Positions 7,061 through 31,456 of a DNA stretch of 32,613 nucleotides are shown here, one piece after another. How positions within the stretch are numbered: position 1 is the first letter of the stretch; each line of letters opens with the position of its first letter. This DNA is from a virus. The stretch spans positions 1 to 32,613 of IMG/VR virus record IMGVR_UViG_3300024262_000142; one strand, 5' to 3'. The position numbers and the translations under genes are program-made. The notes under the pieces are model-generated. The model made no database searches and was not told the DNA's origin. It was given only the letters and a program-made list of their open reading frames with translations.

Positions 7061-7192
7061 GATCCGGTGGCGGAATTGGTAGACGACTTGCTGACATAAA
7101 CAGTAAAGTACTTACTGCGGTCCGTAATATGCCTGGTAAAACAGAAACAATGAGGCCAGTAAGTACTGCAGGTTCGAATCCTGCCTGGATCA
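7061..7192 (+). tRNA. tRNA-Leu-like RNA with oversized variable arm
   Basis: Acceptor stem GATCCGG (7061-7067) pairs with CTGGATC (7185-7191), one G-T pair, with A7192 as discriminator and no encoded CCA. The D-arm TGGCGGAATTGGTAGACG is typical of tRNA-Leu. The T-arm is perfect: GCAGG TTCGAAT CCTGC (7168-7184). The anticodon arm region TTGCTG/CAGTAA (7088-7093/7101-7106) has a 6-bp stem and a 7-nt loop ACATAAA, which lacks U33 and puts ATA in the anticodon place. The variable arm is an 11-bp perfect stem (7107-7117 with 7157-7167) enclosing 39 nt, making the whole 132 nt rather than about 88. It may be a non-decoding tRNA mimic or a tRNA with an insertion. Confidence 0.65.
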
Positions 7193-9153: not shown

Positions 9154-9343
9154 ACAAACACTTCGGGTTGTTGCCCAGCTTACATTCAAACCAAACATTG
9201 TCAGTCTTGTGGCAGAAGAAGATCTTTCGCCTTTCAGTAAAGGCGATATTGTTAAAAGAGTTAGCCGTTTAACTCTTTCTAAAATGGAACGTCCTCTCAA
9301 TGTACTGATTACCAGGGGGGGGGTACGATTAATAACAAAATAA
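9140..9343 (+). CDS. Small protein with a G9 tract near its 3' end
   Basis: A 67-residue basic protein of unknown function (LVAEEDLSPFSKGDIVKRVS). The run of nine G at 9315-9323 encodes the Arg-Gly-Gly close to the C terminus. One extra G would extend the frame by about 20 residues to a stop at 9387-9389, just before the next ATG at 9393; one fewer would stop almost at once. Either the tract is variable or its assembled length is wrong. The start overlaps the previous gene by 14 bases. Confidence 0.5.
   Translation: MEANRQTLRVVAQLTFKPNIVSLVAEEDLSPFSKGDIVKRVSRLTLSKMERPLNVLITRGGVRLITK
9315..9323 (+). repeat. G9 homopolymer in a coding region
   Basis: Nine consecutive G in a genome of only moderate GC. 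Length changes would alter the C terminus of the small protein encoded at 9140-9343. Confidence 0.9.
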
Positions 9344-9392: not shown

Positions 9393-9683
9393 ATGGCACG
9401 ATTTTTTTCAAAGATAACAGCTGATCATTGGATAGCTAAAAACTCGCTTGAGGAAGCAGTTAAGAAGCTTGCCAGGGAAATGGACCGCCGGCTCCTCAAA
9501 AACTTCGAGGTGGCGCCTTTTAAAATAAAGTTCCGGGAAAAGATCAAAGAACTCAATAAAGCTCAACCACGCTGCAAACCGGTTGAACTTGAAATCAGAT
9601 CTTCTTTCCTGAACAAGGAAGAGACCTGGATCAGAGTACCGCAGGTTTTCGAGATGTCTATTTATAAGGCTAAGGAGAATTAA
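9393..9683 (+). CDS. Small basic protein of unknown function
   Basis: A 96-residue helical, basic protein (LAREMDRRLLKNFEVAPFKI) with no recognised family. The ATG follows an A/T-rich leader typical of Bacteroidota starts. It ends 14 bp before the next gene, within the same rightward gene run. Confidence 0.55.
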   Translation: MARFFSKITADHWIAKNSLEEAVKKLAREMDRRLLKNFEVAPFKIKFREKIKELNKAQPRCKPVELEIRSSFLNKEETWIRVPQVFEMSIYKAKEN

Positions 9684-12859: not shown

Positions 12860-13322
12860 ATTCAATTTCCTTTACCGAGTAAAAGATCTTAGCCACCAGC
12901 CACCCTTTATATTCATGCGCGGCCCTATATCCTGTGGGTTTCAGCCTGTCGCCAAACGGCTGATCCTGGTAAGTGAGGGGGTAATTATCGAGTACCGCCC
13001 TCACCCCGTCGGCCAGCAGGTCATGAGCCTGCAGCTGCTTATCCGATATCGAAGCATCATTCTCGCCCATGGCCTTGCTAACCACATGAATGGTTACCGG
13101 CACTACCGATCTATCTGTATTTTTAGATATCCCGCTGATGCTTATAATATCAGGGAATTCGATAAATACAATCGGCTCAGCATGTATCCGGCCGGAGGAG
13201 TACTGGTCGTTAAACCACTGGACATCCTTGAAACTCGTGACCTGGCTTGTGATACGGTCCTTGATTGATTTGTAAAACGGGTAAAACATAGCTTTATAGA
13301 TTAAAGTTTTTAAAGAATTCAT
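12858..13322 (-). CDS. Putative tail-completion / head-tail joining protein
   Basis: A 154-residue protein and the last gene of the leftward head operon. The beginning (LKTLIYKAMFYPFYKSIKDR) followed by WFNDQY and IVFIEFP, with a basic strand-rich centre and AHEYKGWLVAKIFYSV end, resembles small tail-terminator or neck proteins such as Mu gp37-type (DUF1834). The match is by general pattern and position after the virion morphogenesis gene, so the role is tentative. It overlaps that gene by 29 bases. Confidence 0.5.
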   Translation of the reverse strand: MNSLKTLIYKAMFYPFYKSIKDRITSQVTSFKDVQWFNDQYSSGRIHAEPIVFIEFPDIISISGISKNTDRSVVPVTIHVVSKAMGENDASISDKQLQAHDLLADGVRAVLDNYPLTYQDQPFGDRLKPTGYRAAHEYKGWLVAKIFYSVKEIE

Positions 13323-13815
13323 CCATCTCCCTGGTAATTTTCCTTTCTATTTTTTTATTCAGCTCCTCGGACGGTCCCATGAACTGACGCTGCGGCATCT
13401 CAAAACCCGCTCCCCGGCCGGCATGTCCACCTTCATTATGTACCTGCGCATATGGCTTATCGGTTGAAAAGATCACCTGCTTCTTCGTCTTTGTTGCCCT
13501 GATCGAATCCTTCAGGTGAGGCCCCTTTTTATCTGCCTGATGGCTTACCAGGATAGCCCTTCCTTTATCCTTCCGGAGGAACTCACTATATGCTTTTGTA
13601 CGGCCGCCTCTCTTCTTATTTCTTTGCCCGCCAAACCGGCGCCGCTTCCATTTGCGGATCGACTTATCGGTAAATCCCTGGTTGTCGAAGCTCTGTTCAA
13701 AGTGCTTCTTTCCCTCAACAGCAATTATATCGGGTAACACCTCTGTTATTTTCTCCCTGAGCTTCTGCCCCATTTTAACAAGATCGGGGCCCAACGATGA
13801 AATTTTCTTTGCCAT
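13294..13815 (-). CDS. Phage virion morphogenesis protein (Mu gpG-like)
   Basis: A 173-residue protein with the family signature: YAQVHNEGGHAGRG at 122-135 and MPQRQFMGPSEEL at 140-152, with basic linker segments (KWKRRRFGGQRNKKRGG). Members help head-tail joining in Mu-like and P2-like phages. It lies 11 bp after the MuF-like gene in the leftward operon. Confidence 0.85.
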   Translation of the reverse strand: MAKKISSLGPDLVKMGQKLREKITEVLPDIIAVEGKKHFEQSFDNQGFTDKSIRKWKRRRFGGQRNKKRGGRTKAYSEFLRKDKGRAILVSHQADKKGPHLKDSIRATKTKKQVIFSTDKPYAQVHNEGGHAGRGAGFEMPQRQFMGPSEELNKKIERKITREMDEFFKNFNL

Positions 13816-13826
13816 TTAATTTTTAT

Positions 13827-14399
13827 TTATTTTTCACTTAACTGTGATTTAACGAACTTCATAAGCTCATCAGCCCTGTCGGCAGACCCTTTAATATACG
13901 GATGCTTATCGGAGAATATCTTTGCTTCCTTCCCGGCATTGACATCCATGCCGGCAGGAACATTGGGAAGCTTATCCGGAACAGGTGTGGGATCCTTATC
14001 GGAAGGCCTGAGGGTACAACGGCAGCCCCAGTCGAGGGGTGGCGAGTATTTATCCCAGAAAGGATCATTTATAGGCCGGATCGTTCCATGCAGCCGGGCA
14101 TGCGATTCACGTGTGCGGTCATCACGCACAGCAATATAGATAAGGTTCGGGTAAAGATTCGCGGTCTTTTCGAAGTCTCTCCAGCGCCTTGCCTGCTGGG
14201 CTGTGGTATGTGCCTGGTTATATTCGGTCTGCAGCCACCTCTTGTTATATGTATCATCTATCTTCAGGGCCTCATCGCGAAACTCTTTCCAGGAGCGAGC
14301 CGTGCCATCGGGTTTAAGCAGTAGGGAAGCAGCCTCTTTTATCTGCTCATTTTGCTTGAAGGCGGCAAACACTGCAGAGTTATATTTAACCTGCTTCAA
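13827..14399 (-). CDS. MuF-like minor head protein, probably made as a portal fusion by -1 frameshift
   Basis: This encodes the MuF (SPP1 gp7-type) domain: RTRESHARLHGTIRP, DPFWDKYSPP and WGCRCTL, the canonical R-x-x-H-x-x-x-H-G and C-R-C motifs. The only conventional start in frame is a TTG at 14399, yet the frame stays open about 90 codons further upstream through the portal stop (14618) to an A9 tract (T9 at 14673-14681 on the plus strand). No ATG or GTG occurs in that stretch, which encodes plausible helices (KTVIYNFLQRLYDGDIYEGY). A -1 shift at A_AAA_AAA joins it to the portal, giving a 664-residue protein. MuF proteins enter the prohead with the portal, so a fusion makes sense. A sequencing deletion (true A10) would give the same result. 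Confidence 0.82.
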   Translation of the reverse strand: MKQVKYNSAVFAAFKQNEQIKEAASLLLKPDGTARSWKEFRDEALKIDDTYNKRWLQTEYNQAHTTAQQARRWRDFEKTANLYPNLIYIAVRDDRTRESHARLHGTIRPINDPFWDKYSPPLDWGCRCTLRPSDKDPTPVPDKLPNVPAGMDVNAGKEAKIFSDKHPYIKGSADRADELMKFVKSQLSEK

Positions 14400-14617
14400 G
14401 TACTGCCGGTCGGGTGAATTATATTTAACCTTTGCAAGCGACTTGCCATAACCGGCCTCGAAGCTCGAGAAGATCTCCTTCCATGTTTTTTCCCAGAGGG
14501 CAGGATCGGGGTATCCTTCATAAATATCGCCATCATAAAGACGCTGAAGGAAATTATAAATTACCGTTTTAGGGATAATTACTTCCTGTTTACAAAGGAG
14601 AGTGTCGAGGGGCAGTA

Positions 14618-15820
14618 TCAGTTCCCCGGCATATTTATAACCCAGGATGGAAGCCTCAGCTGAGCTCCGGGCTTTTTTTTTAAGCCGGCGCCTCCCTGCC
14701 CGGCAGGTGCTGGTTCTCCCGGTTTTTGCGGCGGCTCAGGTTCTTCCGGGACACTTGCTTTAACATCGAGAGCCGGGAACCGGAAGGCAGTTCCATCGAG
14801 CTGGTAACCATAATATTTAAGAAAAGGGAACAGGCTGTAATTGGTAAGGTTTGAAGCATAACGCATCCTTGCATGGTGAAAATCATCAAGGATCCTCTCA
14901 TGTACCTCTGCAGAACCCACGAATGATTTTTCATCAGAGGTGCCTGTCTGGCCGTTTATACATTTCGAGATCTGCTCATCGCAGAACTTTGCATTCTCGA
15001 GGTATATTTTATGCACGTCGCTCTTAGCAGTTTCGACGACTTCTACTCCATCCTCGAGGTTGGTAATCATATAGCCGTTGGATGCAAAGTTACGACAGAG
15101 AGCTTCAAGACGGTCAAGCTCCTGCTTATCTTCGGTACCTGTTTTTAGCCAGAGGAATGGCATCCCGAATTTTTCACTTGCCTGGCTCCAGTCGGTACGT
15201 GAAAAGCTCTTCCAGATAACTTCCCGGGATATTATTTTCAGCAGGCCGAGATCCTCCGGTTCCCCGATCTCGATAAGGAATAAAGCTTCAGGCTTATCTC
15301 CGTACGGTATTCCCAACCTGTCACCAGGGCGTATAAGTATATGCCTGGAGAAGGGTTCCACGTGTCGCCTGGGAAAGGCTTTGAAAGATTCCCATACACC
15401 GTCAATACGGGGGCCGGCTTCCACTAATGTATAACCCCACATGAGTGCATCGAAACAAAGGGCGAGCCAGTCCTCGAACCAGGGAGCCTTGAACATGGCA
15501 GTAAGCTCGGGGTTCTCGGTATCACCTTTATTGACAACAAACGGTTCGGAGAGAAGCTTGCTTTTGGCCACCTGCATTTGTGCAAATACATGAGGATCTG
15601 TAACTGAGTTATTGTATATCGCGATCAGGTCCCGTCGGTCTGGCCAGCCGGGATAGATGGCTATCTCCACGGCTGTTTTCAGGGTGTTCATTTCCATCTT
15701 AACCCTGTCCTCGGGAACCGTGGTATCAATCTGGCTTATTATACGCTTTCTTGTCTCTTTCCTCGCAGGCTCGTTTTTCTGCCCCAGGATTTGATTGAGT
15801 GTTTTTCTGAAGGGGTTCAT
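14618..15820 (-). CDS. Portal protein (DUF935, Mu gp29-like)
   Basis: A 400-residue DUF935-type portal. The N terminus (NPFRKTLNQILGQ), VTDPHVFAQMQVAKSKLL, WFEDWLALCFDALMWGYTLVE, and GMPFLWLKT followed by QELDRLEALCRNFASNGYM are typical. It forms the dodecameric portal through which DNA enters the capsid. Near the end, residues 379-384 (GLKKKP) are encoded over an A9 tract, where ribosomes may slip by -1 into the MuF frame. The zero-frame product ends 17 residues later (SWVINMPGN). The Pro/Gly-rich linker PEEPEPPQKPGEPAPAGQGG before the slip site would suit a tether between two domains. Confidence 0.9.
   Translation of the reverse strand: MNPFRKTLNQILGQKNEPARKETRKRIISQIDTTVPEDRVKMEMNTLKTAVEIAIYPGWPDRRDLIAIYNNSVTDPHVFAQMQVAKSKLLSEPFVVNKGDTENPELTAMFKAPWFEDWLALCFDALMWGYTLVEAGPRIDGVWESFKAFPRRHVEPFSRHILIRPGDRLGIPYGDKPEALFLIEIGEPEDLGLLKIISREVIWKSFSRTDWSQASEKFGMPFLWLKTGTEDKQELDRLEALCRNFASNGYMITNLEDGVEVVETAKSDVHKIYLENAKFCDEQISKCINGQTGTSDEKSFVGSAEVHERILDDFHHARMRYASNLTNYSLFPFLKYYGYQLDGTAFRFPALDVKASVPEEPEPPQKPGEPAPAGQGGAGLKKKPGAQLRLPSWVINMPGN
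14673..14681 (-). promoter_or_regulatory. Candidate -1 ribosomal frameshift site (A9) in the portal gene
   Basis: On the coding strand the frame reads TTA AAA AAA AAG, giving an A_AAA_AAA slippery heptamer. Shifting by -1 enters the MuF frame, open from there to 13827. A GC-rich self-complementary segment (CTCAGCTGAG, within GGAGC...GCTTCC) follows within a few bases and might stimulate shifting. The sequence pattern is the same kind as the A10 site in the tail chaperone pair at 23623-23632. Confidence 0.6.
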
Positions 15821-15878: not shown

Positions 15879-16313
15879 TCAGGGGCATTCATACGGATCA
15901 TGAGTTCGGGGATCATTACTGCCCATTCTTATGCGTGAAACCGTCTCTCCTTCCGAGTCGGTATTCAGGGTCAATGTACAGGAAAGTCTCCCCTGCTGTA
16001 TAAGCTCCAGCTCACGGATGGCATCGTCATAATCTTTTATTACTCTCTCCGGGACCTCATCGTCGGGTATCCTGGAATAAAGTGTATAAATCACTATGGC
16101 GATCGTCCATCTCATTAGTGATTTATTACGTTCTGAACCTGTTTTAGCAAATTCGGCCGTTATAGCATACTTATCCGAAAGCCGGTCCTTGATTATTCCT
16201 ATTGCTTCCGCCTCGGCATTATCAAGCAGATAATCGGAATCGTCGGTAAGCAGCCCGATAATACGGTCAGTCAGGCGGGTGCGGTAGTCATCATAGTTAA
16301 TAAATGTGCTCAT
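15879..16313 (-). CDS. DUF1320 / Mu gp36-like head-tail connector
   Basis: A 144-residue protein with the gp36/DUF1320 pattern: NYDDYRTRLTDRIIGLLTDD, AEAIGIIKDRLSDKY, WTIAIVIYTLYSRIPDDEVPE and YDDAIRELELIQQG. In Mu-like phages this protein is a connector between portal and tail. It is two bases downstream of the terminase large subunit gene and 58 bp before the portal gene in the leftward operon. Confidence 0.85.
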   Translation of the reverse strand: MSTFINYDDYRTRLTDRIIGLLTDDSDYLLDNAEAEAIGIIKDRLSDKYAITAEFAKTGSERNKSLMRWTIAIVIYTLYSRIPDDEVPERVIKDYDDAIRELELIQQGRLSCTLTLNTDSEGETVSRIRMGSNDPRTHDPYECP

Positions 16314-16315
16314 GG

Positions 16316-17836
16316 TTAACCTGTTCTTGAATTATTTTTAGTATAGGATCCTGTACGTGATCTGCCTTTCAGGTTACTTCGCCTGGCAAATTGTGACAGG
16401 TCAGTGAAGCAGCGTTCATCGGCATCAGGGGCATCGTCTTTTGTTTTATAGCCCGGCTCGATGCCGTAAAGCTGTGCCAGGCCCACCTGTGTATCATTAT
16501 GGCCCTTCAGCTTATCGGAATAGAAGATCCTGCCATTTTGATAATATGGCTGTGTACTGACAATGCGATCATATTTATTTTCCCTGGGTAGGTCTACTTT
16601 ACGAAGGCGAAAATCCATCCTGTTCTTTTTCTCCACCTCATCGATTGTTCGCTGAACCTCCTCGTTCCAGAACTGGCTTTCGTATTGCCATCTTACTCTC
16701 ACATTTCCCGGAAGCTCTTTTATTTTATCTGCTATCCACTGGATGGCATCGCGCATCTTGCTCTGCTTAACAAAGCAATCCATAAGATAGAACCGGTTTT
16801 CCTTCAGGCCCCAGAGGCGGACAGCATTATAATCGGCAGTTGCCGAAGCTGAATAAGCAATATCCCAATGACCGATAATATGTTCAAAATGGTTTATTGC
16901 CGGCAGGTGTACCCACTGGATCTGGTCTATTGTAAAGATCGTTCCCTCGATATGAGGTTTGTTATTATACTCTGCCAGGGCTGCCAGTGTGCCAATTTCC
17001 TTTTCAATTTCCTTATAATATTCTTTTGAATATTTTTCCTTCCAGGCTGGTTCATAAGTGGCTGAGTCGTATGCATCAATTTGATCGAGATCCCATGATG
17101 GATGTCTTTCCCGAAGTACTTCCTGAATTGTTAGTGGCGCAAAATAATTATTTGGCATTATGAATCTTCTGCGAGGGCCATCCATAATTGGGATTATATT
17201 CTGCTCGATCTTTTTTGCATAAGCTCTCAGTCTTTTAGGATTCTTTGTAATTTCTTCATCATCGAGATCGTCGGCAGATATATAATCGGGACAAGATGGA
17301 CCACGGCGCAACCCACGCGCACTTTGCTCCATACCGAAAGCCATCGCAAAAAAACCGTTTTTTGTTCGAAAATCACCTTTAGACCAATCACCTGTAACCT
17401 TCTGTTCGCCAAAATCATGAATAAGCCTGGGATTTGCAGTAAATTCTGCCTGGAGATCTGAAAGGAGAACTTTTGCTTTGTCATAGGTTTGGCCTAGCAA
17501 TACCATAAATTTGATATCATCGTTTACCCAAAGCAATACCGGGATTATGATATCAGCCCAGACACTTTTAGCAAGCTTTCTTCCCCAACGGAGGAGAATG
17601 AAACATACTGATTGCCTCAGAACTTTTTTTGCAAATCGTACATGGAACCAGGCGCTTTTTGAATTACAGTAATGCGGGAAATAATATTCGGCAAATTCAC
17701 GAGGATGAGCCTTCAGGTATTTTATGCGTTCCTTTTTTGCTTCATCAGTTTCGAAAGGATCGAAAGATGCTCCTGATTTTATTTTCTCAAGGTTTGCCCT
17801 ATACCTTTCAGCTGTTATTTTATCAATGCGCTTCAT
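16316..17836 (-). CDS. Terminase large subunit (Mu gp28-like)
   Basis: A 506-residue packaging motor. The ATPase half shows an unusual Walker A (RWGRKLAKS, 83-91) and a Walker B with adjacent acids (PDYISADDLDDEE, 183-195). The nuclease half has an RNase H-type fold signature with Asp325 in GHWDIAYS, Asp335 in TADYNA, and acidic DAPDADE near the end. It cuts and pumps phage DNA, in Mu-like phages starting at the left end and carrying host DNA on the right. The stop of the small subunit gene overlaps its ATG by four bases. Confidence 0.9.
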   Translation of the reverse strand: MKRIDKITAERYRANLEKIKSGASFDPFETDEAKKERIKYLKAHPREFAEYYFPHYCNSKSAWFHVRFAKKVLRQSVCFILLRWGRKLAKSVWADIIIPVLLWVNDDIKFMVLLGQTYDKAKVLLSDLQAEFTANPRLIHDFGEQKVTGDWSKGDFRTKNGFFAMAFGMEQSARGLRRGPSCPDYISADDLDDEEITKNPKRLRAYAKKIEQNIIPIMDGPRRRFIMPNNYFAPLTIQEVLRERHPSWDLDQIDAYDSATYEPAWKEKYSKEYYKEIEKEIGTLAALAEYNNKPHIEGTIFTIDQIQWVHLPAINHFEHIIGHWDIAYSASATADYNAVRLWGLKENRFYLMDCFVKQSKMRDAIQWIADKIKELPGNVRVRWQYESQFWNEEVQRTIDEVEKKNRMDFRLRKVDLPRENKYDRIVSTQPYYQNGRIFYSDKLKGHNDTQVGLAQLYGIEPGYKTKDDAPDADERCFTDLSQFARRSNLKGRSRTGSYTKNNSRTG

Positions 17837-23362: not shown

Positions 23363-23647
23363 ATGGCAGTAAAGATCAAAGGCAAGGAATATCCCATCGA
23401 GACGACGATGTGGGCCCTGCTGCAGTTTAAGCGGGATAAAGGGAAAGCTCTGTCGGATCTCAAAGATGATGACCAGGAAGATATGATATATTATACCTGG
23501 TTATGCGTGAAGGGAGCCTGTATGAGGGCAGAGATCGACTTTAACATATCGTTCGAGGATTATACTCTCTGGGTAGAGGGAGATCCCACGGAGGCTCTTT
23601 TATTATCAAAAGTCGGGGATCCAAAAAAAAAAGAGGAAAACCGCTGA
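23363..23647 (+). CDS. Tail assembly chaperone, short form (G-like)
   Basis: A 94-residue protein located between tail tube and tape measure genes. The acidic N-terminal part and the helix YYTWLCVKGACMRAEI are typical of gpG-type chaperones, which hold the tape measure during tail assembly. Near the C terminus the codons CCA AAA AAA AAA GAG contain an A10 run where ribosomes may slip -1 to make the long form. The short form stops at 23645-23647. Confidence 0.82.
   Translation: MAVKIKGKEYPIETTMWALLQFKRDKGKALSDLKDDDQEDMIYYTWLCVKGACMRAEIDFNISFEDYTLWVEGDPTEALLLSKVGDPKKKEENR
23623..23632 (+). promoter_or_regulatory. -1 ribosomal frameshift site (A10), tail chaperone
   Basis: Slippery A-tract within CCA AAA AAA AAA GAG. 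A -1 shift gives AGA GGA AAA CCG CTG ACG and continues in the open frame to 23967. Programmed shifting here is a conserved trait of long-tailed phages. Confidence 0.8.
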
Positions 23648-23661
23648 CGATTGAGGCTGCC

Positions 23662-23967
23662 TTGGGCATTGCTATCGGTGACATAGGGATGGATATTCAA
23701 AGCTTCTATCACCTTTCCCCGGGAGAATTTGAAGTGATTTATAAACGATGGACAGAATCAAATGAAAGGGATAAACAAAACAGCTGGGAACAGATCAGGC
23801 TCGTATGCTATCATGCTATAAGACCATACATGAAGCGGAAAACGAGCCTGAAAAAATTCATGCCTTTGCCATGGGATAATAAGAAAAAAATAAAATCACA
23901 AGAGGGCAGAAAACGGGATCCCCGGAGGTTTAATATGCTGAAAAAGAAGTATGGAGAAAAAATATAA
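23662..23967 (+). CDS. Tail assembly chaperone, T domain (expressed by -1 frameshift as G-T fusion)
   Basis: The frame encodes IAIGDIGMDIQSFYHLSP, FEVIYKRWTESNERDKQNS and a basic C terminus (KKFMPLPWDNKKK). It has no good start: the first candidate is a TTG at 23662, with ATG only later in GGGATGGAT. It is instead reached by -1 slippage at 23623-23632, producing a G-T protein of 201 residues beginning at 23363. In Mu-like and lambda-like phages this long form is needed in a fixed ratio to the short form. It overlaps the tape measure ATG (23951) by 17 bases. Confidence 0.82.
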   Translation: MGIAIGDIGMDIQSFYHLSPGEFEVIYKRWTESNERDKQNSWEQIRLVCYHAIRPYMKRKTSLKKFMPLPWDNKKKIKSQEGRKRDPRRFNMLKKKYGEKI

Positions 23968-30586: not shown

Positions 30587-31456
30587 ATGCCCCCCCCCAG
30601 TGAATATAAGGCAATACATGTAAATCCCAGGGCCTATTCTGTCAACGCAACGGAAAAGGCTTATGTAATGTCTTTTACTTCTAAGAAGGCCTATTCCTTT
30701 AGTGCAACAGAACAGGCTTTTTCAATGTCTTTTACTTCACCGGAATACACTGCTTCAAGATTCACACGGCCTACTTCTTTCACTGCTTCCAATCCAATTA
30801 TTGACAATTCAATATATGCTCCGGGAGCATCAATTATATGCTTTATCGATGTCACTAATTTCGGGGCGAATGGTGAAAAGGAATTGTTCTGGGAGGTTGT
30901 GAATGAAGGTGAGGAAGTGTTGTCATCAGGATCCCAGATGTCAGGAATAATCAATAAGTGGGATACAGAGACAATTAGCTTATCAGGAATATATGTCCCC
31001 GACAATTATCAGTATTTCCATGTACGTTTTAAAATAGAAGAAACTGGTGATTGGCTTTACAGTACATGGGCTCATTCATTGCCTGTTGACCTTACAGTCA
31101 CATCAGTTAATTCTGGAAGCGATATTTATTGGCCGGACACGGCTATTGATTGTTATGTGCATGTCACAAATGCTGGTTTTGCTGGTAGCCAGATGATAGA
31201 ATGGCAAGTAATAAATGTTGATAATTCCGAAATTTTAAACAGCGGTTCTCAAAGCTCCGGAACAATAGCAGACTTTGGATCAGCAGATGTTTCTTTAACT
31301 GGAATTGTATCACCTTCTGGTGGGGATATAAAGTTCAAAGTACGATCAAGAATAGTTGGTTCTTCAACATGGATATATAGTTTTCAGATGACCAACTACT
31401 TATATTGGACACCTCCGGAGAATCCACCGCCCAGAGATCCACCGCCACCACCATAA
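30587..31456 (+). CDS. Putative tail fibre/adhesin with two Ig-like repeats and a C9 tract at the start
   Basis: A 289-residue protein beginning MPPPSEYKAI. Residues 17-62 contain a short repeated unit (NATEKAYVMSFTSKKAY, SATEQAFSMSFTSPEY). Two CARDB/Ig-like beta domains follow, at about 70-165 and 166-275, each with an APGASIICFIDVTN- or WPDTAIDCYVHVTN-type strand and a repeated SGSQMSGII/SGSQSSGTI segment. It ends in a proline-rich tail (PPENPPPRDPPPPP). The nine C directly after ATG put the gene at risk of frame switching: C8 or C10 closes the frame within 12 codons. A receptor-binding or decoration role is likely by position and fold. Confidence 0.65.
   Translation: MPPPSEYKAIHVNPRAYSVNATEKAYVMSFTSKKAYSFSATEQAFSMSFTSPEYTASRFTRPTSFTASNPIIDNSIYAPGASIICFIDVTNFGANGEKELFWEVVNEGEEVLSSGSQMSGIINKWDTETISLSGIYVPDNYQYFHVRFKIEETGDWLYSTWAHSLPVDLTVTSVNSGSDIYWPDTAIDCYVHVTNAGFAGSQMIEWQVINVDNSEILNSGSQSSGTIADFGSADVSLTGIVSPSGGDIKFKVRSRIVGSSTWIYSFQMTNYLYWTPPENPPPRDPPPPP
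30590..30598 (+). repeat. C9 homopolymer right after a start codon
   Basis: Reads ATG CCC CCC CCC AGT GAA. A single-base change in tract length would stop translation early: C8 gives a stop 11 codons on, and C10 gives CAG TGA at once. Confidence 0.9.

Follow-up and report, generated by a model that had tools for sequence, protein, structure and literature searches.

Portal and MuF reading frames in the window

How is a head protein made when its reading frame offers no convincing start codon? The MuF gene of a Mu-like phage, represented by IMG/VR virus record IMGVR_UViG_3300024262_000142, raises this question. We analysed all 32,613 nucleotides (nt) of this stretch of DNA, referred to as the window in this text. 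The head genes lie on its minus strand and comprise the terminase small and large subunits, a gp36-like adaptor, the portal, MuF and a gpG-like protein. The portal and MuF genes meet at a run of nine adenines (A9), and from the arrangement of the frames in the window and its relatives we consider it highly probable that programmed slippage at this run makes portal and portal-MuF in a ratio.

The portal gene (14618-15820, minus strand) starts with ATG and encodes the zero-frame product of 400 aa. It matches Portal_Mu (PF06074, E 1.4e-52) and the PHROG portal annotation, and its profile matches PDB chains named Portal protein, the best being 9khx (512 aa). The A9 run occupies 14673-14681 on the same strand (T9 on the plus strand). 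There the portal frame reads TTA AAA AAA AAG, and the heptamers A_AAA_AAA and A_AAA_AAG are both in register with it. The MuF frame is -1 relative to the portal frame. From the slip site to its stop it spans 13827-14672 on the minus strand (281 aa) and matches Phage_Mu_F (PF04233, E 3e-17), with PHROG matches from residue 56 on. Both Pfam matches are above the cut-off, and they are adjacent and downstream of the terminase. The MuF frame continues past the portal stop without interruption to its own end at 13827; the portal-only C-terminal tail between slip site and portal stop (14618-14672, minus strand) overlaps it. A -1 shift within the run, or one A added in the transcript, joins the two frames into a single 664-residue protein without stops (13827-15820, minus strand), a product for which in-frame fusions in relatives offer a parallel.

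This joining by a -1 shift had been put forward in the original prediction, an earlier reading of the window from its letters, and the frames bear it out. The prediction had also noted that MuF has no ATG or GTG ahead of a TTG at 14399. This is correct and extends to TTG itself: downstream of the run, neither ATG, GTG nor TTG occurs until the TTG at 14399, codon 91. An ordinary overlapping gene would have its start near the portal stop; here, the frame runs through 91 codons without any of these triplets. The description of the MuF frame as open up to the heptamer holds with a minor correction, since it is open for about 18 codons further upstream of the run, also without a start codon. The same layout is found in the nearest relative, L096, which comes from a different metagenome and has a terminase large subunit (TerL) 79% identical to that of the window phage. 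It carries A9 at the same site with the same -1 relation, and a TAA overlapping the run means that its MuF frame becomes open just there.

Slippery sites at the junction in relatives

Relatives were gathered with portal and TerL alignments, which yielded 240 loci from IMG/VR and GTDB; an alignment of eight distant portals (A1) was too divergent as a query, and a TerL alignment (A3) was used in its place. Loci were dereplicated at 80% portal identity. We found about 130 dereplicated Mu-like portal/MuF pairs from Bacteroidota and Alphaproteobacteria with an in-frame slippery site at the junction. The sites are of several types: T_TTT_TTC with a covarying hairpin 5-6 nt downstream, runs of A6-A8 mostly with a hairpin, and runs of A9-A12 without one. 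A core slippery heptamer is present in 101 of the 107 dereplicated loci in which MuF overlaps the portal gene in the -1 frame. In the portal bodies of these 101 carriers, 31 of 40,809 codon positions hold an in-frame core heptamer, a rate that predicts 1.8 in the overlaps.

Among annotated Mu-like phages of Bacteroidota, A_AAA_AAA is found in Flavobacterium fF4 and Peternella, while T_TTT_TTC occurs in Bacteroides Hankyphage-like phages, in Elizabethkingia TCUEAP3 and in gut contigs. In the GC-rich genomes of Mu-like phages from Alphaproteobacteria (RcapMu, Rhizobium RR1-B and about 40 IMG/VR loci), the junction bears A8-A10, mostly A9. No such junction site was present in Mu, Spike, Fc02 and the Vibrio, Helicobacter and Salinibacter phages, which have ordinary starts for MuF or the downstream gene. 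The original prediction had looked to related phages for an A-tract or a natural fusion at this position, and both exist there, as do other slippery heptamers. ATG-started MuF genes, which had been named as evidence to the contrary, lie mostly where the slippery site is missing: 12 of 130 slippery loci have an ATG no more than 25 nt from the portal stop, vs 19 of 28 non-slippery ones (all sets; Fisher p 3e-10). Moreover, in 28 loci the slippery site is precisely where the MuF frame becomes open, which leaves no possible start upstream.

The 3' end of the portal gene of L197, a Neptunitalea prophage, shows a different arrangement. Here the overlap contains A11, and MuF is read in the +1 (or -2) frame with respect to the portal. 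Such frames could be joined by transcriptional slippage but not by a simple -1 slip of the ribosome.

Several observations weigh against programmed slippage. In the 12 slippery loci with an ATG near the portal stop, a separate MuF could be made too. Hankyphage-like loci are among them: in L012 and the related L263, MuF is annotated as starting at the ATG at -6. A few loci (L109, L129, L200, L231 and L240) have a -1 overlap without a core heptamer; most overlaps of this kind show related sites, for example G_GGT_TTT followed by a hairpin or, ahead of the stop, G_GGA_AAG. In the window itself, a stimulatory hairpin was sought downstream of the A9 run, and no significant or conserved fold was detected (z -0.7 to -0.1). 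As the fold is unremarkable, the slippage signal in the window would be the A9 run alone.

Hairpins, run length and possible modes of slippage

At T_TTT_TTC sites, a spacer of 5-6 nt (58 of 66 loci) is followed by a GC-rich stem, mostly of 6-9 bp. The 8-bp stem of this class is 99.5% paired in 23 gap-free sequences and has 17 double-change cells vs 5.9 in shuffles (0/500); slid controls lose the signal. Strong folds are also seen at most A_AAT_TTT sites and A6-A8 runs. The mean hairpin z is -2.30 for the T class and -1.70 for runs of up to eight As, and among runs of at least nine it is -0.10 in split loci, -0.53 in fused loci and -0.35 in alphaproteobacteria (A<=8 vs A>=9, p 0.0026). One fused portal-MuF gene, L110, is unlike other long-A loci in that a perfect 14-bp hairpin (ACCCTGAGGGTTTC / GAAACCCTCAGGGT) follows its A11.

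The length of the long runs is strikingly stable. A9 is constant in 29 of 30 alphaproteobacterial loci, over three codon phases, and the long runs of Bacteroidota range from A9 to A12 with a mode at A10, their length again being kept whatever the codon phase. This fits selection on run length, as expected for slippage of the RNA polymerase. The dereplicated alphaproteobacterial loci contain 30 A or T runs of at least nine in 324 kb, and 30 loci have a junction run of at least nine As. In many bacteria, selection against RNA polymerase slippage shows once a run reaches nine As, and the dnaX gene of Thermus uses A9 (PMC1088944). An upstream Shine-Dalgarno-like stimulator is unsupported, being present in 10% of Bacteroidota loci with at least nine As (background 5%) and in 0% of the alphaproteobacterial ones. 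A GGGAGG about 9 nt upstream of the window's run has no clear counterpart in L096.

Could the joining in the window be purely ribosomal, by -1 frameshifting on A_AAA_AAA or A_AAA_AAG with the RNA polymerase uninvolved? Both heptamers are in register, and the lineage uses ribosomal shifting, since two groups near the window (those of L097 and L102) pair an A7 run with a strong hairpin. In bacteria, long A runs can plausibly cause -1 shifting even where no hairpin follows. However, runs of at least nine As lack, as a class, the stimulatory hairpin that most shorter ones have, the run stays at nine or ten whatever the codon phase, and in fused A10 loci a stop is close by in either of the other two frames. 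We regard a ribosome-only mechanism as possible, at somewhat less than an even chance, and a contribution of RNA polymerase slippage in the window as rather likely. With an A9 run and no conserved hairpin, a slip of the polymerase is no less likely than a -1 shift of the ribosome. The programmed -1 frameshift of the original prediction thus stands as slippage that joins portal to MuF and is less sure as a purely ribosomal event; "programmed slippage" is the safer label for the window phage than "programmed -1 ribosomal frameshift".

Fused portal-MuF genes

About 28 further relatives encode portal and MuF in a single fused frame that has kept the slippery site, usually with a -1-frame stop just beyond it. 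Single-frame fusions with A9-A11 in the linker account for 20 dereplicated loci from Bacteroidota and 5 from Alphaproteobacteria. In the fused Bacteroidota set, the -1 frame runs into a stop no more than 9 nt past the A run in 90% of loci (background 21%), and the +1 frame does so within 30 nt in 95% (background 42%). Three fused groups, Porphyromonas phages included, keep T_TTT_TTC and the hairpin, with the -1 stop 41-62 nt downstream. Judging from these layouts, slippage in fused loci would give plain portal from a fused gene, an inverted, dnaX-like arrangement. On a quick portal tree made with FastTree, the classes need at least 32 changes, with 17 between split and fused and 10 between slippery and non-slippery. 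So many changes suggest that the signals were exchanged repeatedly while the two products stayed.

The same fusions bear on an alternative raised in the original prediction, namely that one A is missing from the assembly and that the window has a true A10 and one fused gene. Although in-frame fusions with A9-A11 in the linker do exist, this is very unlikely: the independently sequenced L096 also has A9 and the same -1 relation, and separate frames at slippery sites are the rule in the roughly 130 dereplicated loci, which include isolates and GTDB genomes. Even with A10 the outcome would be similar, because fused relatives keep the run and a -1-frame stop 4-9 nt later, so that slippage would still yield both products.

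The MuF stretch ahead of the TTG

It is also conceivable that MuF is an ordinary separate gene, begun at the TTG or by re-initiation at a rare start after the portal stop, and that the A9 run is incidental. A TTG does exist (14397-14399, minus strand), ORF callers would take it as the MuF start, and MuF is started separately in Mu, Spike and the Vibrio and Helicobacter Mu-like phages. However, L096 has no TTG at that place. Over the 73 codons between portal stop and TTG, the window and L096 differ with a nonsynonymous rate (dN) of 0.43 and a synonymous rate (dS) of 3.5, values which indicate that the MuF stretch upstream of the TTG is under purifying selection.

The predicted structure agrees with this. 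An AlphaFold model of the window MuF ORF, made with 12 sequences, has a mean predicted local distance difference test score (pLDDT) of 83.7, with residues 29-281 well folded and helices at 35-46, 57-75 and 87-115 confidently placed. A start at the TTG would fall inside the third helix and lose the two others. According to the model, then, the stretch before the TTG is part of the folded MuF domain. A Foldseek search of the model against the PDB returned no significant match, and comparison by sequence gave no PDB match to MuF either. We rejected the TTG as the MuF start on account of its position within a predicted helix and its lack of conservation in L096.

The wider comparison is also hard to reconcile with a separate gene. 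Slippery site and nearby ATG tend to exclude each other across relatives, 28 loci leave no room for a start upstream of the site, and hairpins covary downstream of it. We therefore consider a separately started MuF in the window highly improbable. That the phage is a degenerate prophage with a decayed MuF and a mutational frame break has hardly any probability, even though frame breaks are common in prophages and L254 and L207 look decayed, because here MuF is unbroken up to its stop codon and held by purifying selection, the neighbouring head genes are intact, and phages of two phyla share the arrangement.

A proposed role for slippage in the portal ring

We propose that selection maintains a slippery site at the end of the portal gene. 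Most chains would end at the portal stop as plain portal, and a fraction would cross into the -1 frame and gain a C-terminal MuF domain. Portal rings would then hold a few portal-MuF subunits among plain ones, and MuF would enter the head already tethered to the portal and at a low, set number. There seem to be three ways to this end. In the first, the ribosome would shift by -1 at T_TTT_TTC (or at A_AAT_TTT or A6-A8), helped by a hairpin 5-6 nt downstream. In the second, slippage would occur on A9-A12 without a hairpin. The third would be the inverted layout, with portal-MuF as the zero-frame product and slippage leading to a stop soon after the site. The window would follow the second way: most likely, the RNA polymerase inserts an extra A at the A9 run, and the ribosome may contribute some shifting.

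If slippage were near 10%, we infer that one or two portal-MuF chains would be built into each twelve-subunit ring. In SPP1, the MuF protein gp7 binds the portal and is present in 1-2 copies per capsid (PMC5576092). We found no explanation in the literature for how MuF is counted onto the portal ring. Slippage inside the portal gene would offer a direct way of counting, and it makes the question testable. A recoding switch conserved across two phyla probably sets the number of MuF domains per ring, while its mechanism and its split or fused polarity change repeatedly; where MuF carries a toxin, the toxin dose would be set too.

Some MuF proteins that slippage would reach have C-terminal toxin-type domains, namely Gln_amidase (L010, L012), CdiA_C (L178) and LPD3 (L006). 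These would be synthesized as portal-MuF-toxin chains. The paper that describes such a MuF toxin family in Bacteroidales prophages does not mention slippage (PMC11699363); members of the family may be built in this way. The annotation of many phages and prophages, where MuF has been called from a late or wrong start, could be corrected accordingly. In addition, hairpin-driven and long-A signals swapped within one gene family provide a natural comparison of ribosomal and transcriptional slippage under the same selection.

Neighbouring genes and other features

On the minus strand, the portal and MuF genes are flanked by a Mu gp36-like head-tail adaptor (15879-16313, PF07030), the TerL gene that served as query for finding relatives (16316-17836, phrog_38, E 3e-52) and a gpG-like virion morphogenesis or neck protein (13294-13815, PF05069). 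The A10 slip that the original prediction had mentioned for the tail-chaperone pair is indeed present as an A10 run at 23623-23632 on the plus strand, between two tail-chaperone-like frames (23363-23967) and read CCA AAA AAA AAA GAG. This is a known kind of slip and serves as a comparison; the phage thus has two unlinked long-A slip sites.

Further runs were seen elsewhere in the window. The gene at 30587-30598 begins ATG CCC CCC CCC, and the length of this C9, directly after the start codon, could vary. A G9 run (9315-9323) lies in a short intergenic stretch upstream of an ORF at 9393. A weak tRNA match at 7061-7192 (29.7 bits, cut-off 29, spanning 132 nt) is probably spurious or an odd tRNA.

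Comparison with known systems

The original prediction knew of no described portal-MuF frameshift, which agrees with the literature searched apart from one GenBank note. We found no paper on portal-MuF slippage, although subscription journals were thinly covered and an earlier report is possible. The PRFect and GeneTack papers do not mention portal-MuF, the Peternella paper does not mention a frameshift, and the word "portal" is absent from the accessible part of a 2016 recoding review. The sole hint is the GenBank record of RcapMu (NC_016165), where the portal gene carries the note "possible +1 frameshift would allow readthrough" and a MuF-like gene is said to lack a good start. This is an undeveloped remark on one phage, in which the run is A8 with a -1 relation. 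The joint product had already been proposed from sequence in the original prediction; its conservation and the two interchangeable mechanisms are new here.

A close parallel is the tail assembly chaperone frameshift of lambda (gpG/gpGT), reportedly described by Xu, Hendrix and Duda in 2004. There, as proposed here, a -1 slip at the end of a phage structural gene yields a minor, C-terminally extended product in a set ratio, and the site is kept in position and not in sequence. The system described here differs in its genes and in its location: tail-chaperone frameshifts lie between the genes for the major tail protein and the tape measure, whereas this site is inside the portal gene and separate from the tail-chaperone-like A10 site. 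Its extended product would be expected to remain in the portal ring of the virion, unlike an assembly chaperone. Furthermore, hairpin-type and long-A-type signals replace each other at the portal/MuF junction, and some clades invert the polarity.

This inverted class resembles dnaX (tau/gamma), as its long product is in the zero frame and a stop follows just past the slip site. As in dnaX, which uses ribosomal frameshifting in E. coli and transcriptional slippage on A9 in Thermus, both ribosomal and long-A signals occur. Unlike dnaX, the gene encodes a phage head protein and not a polymerase subunit, and most portal/MuF loci have the opposite polarity. Slippage also produces a minor extended head protein in the capsid frameshift of T7, which gives gp10B. 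The capsid frameshifts of phages A2 and PSA likewise add a C-terminal extension to a minor form (PMC5009743). In all of these, the extended protein is the major capsid protein and not the portal, and the extension is not a MuF domain.

Finally, portal and MuF are found on one chain in Microbacterium phages of clusters EA and EB (PMC7302621) and in the Porphyromonas phage fusions. In the EA/EB actinophages the fusion, as described, is on every subunit; the Porphyromonas phages, with T_TTT_TTC and the hairpin kept at the junction, probably make both forms.
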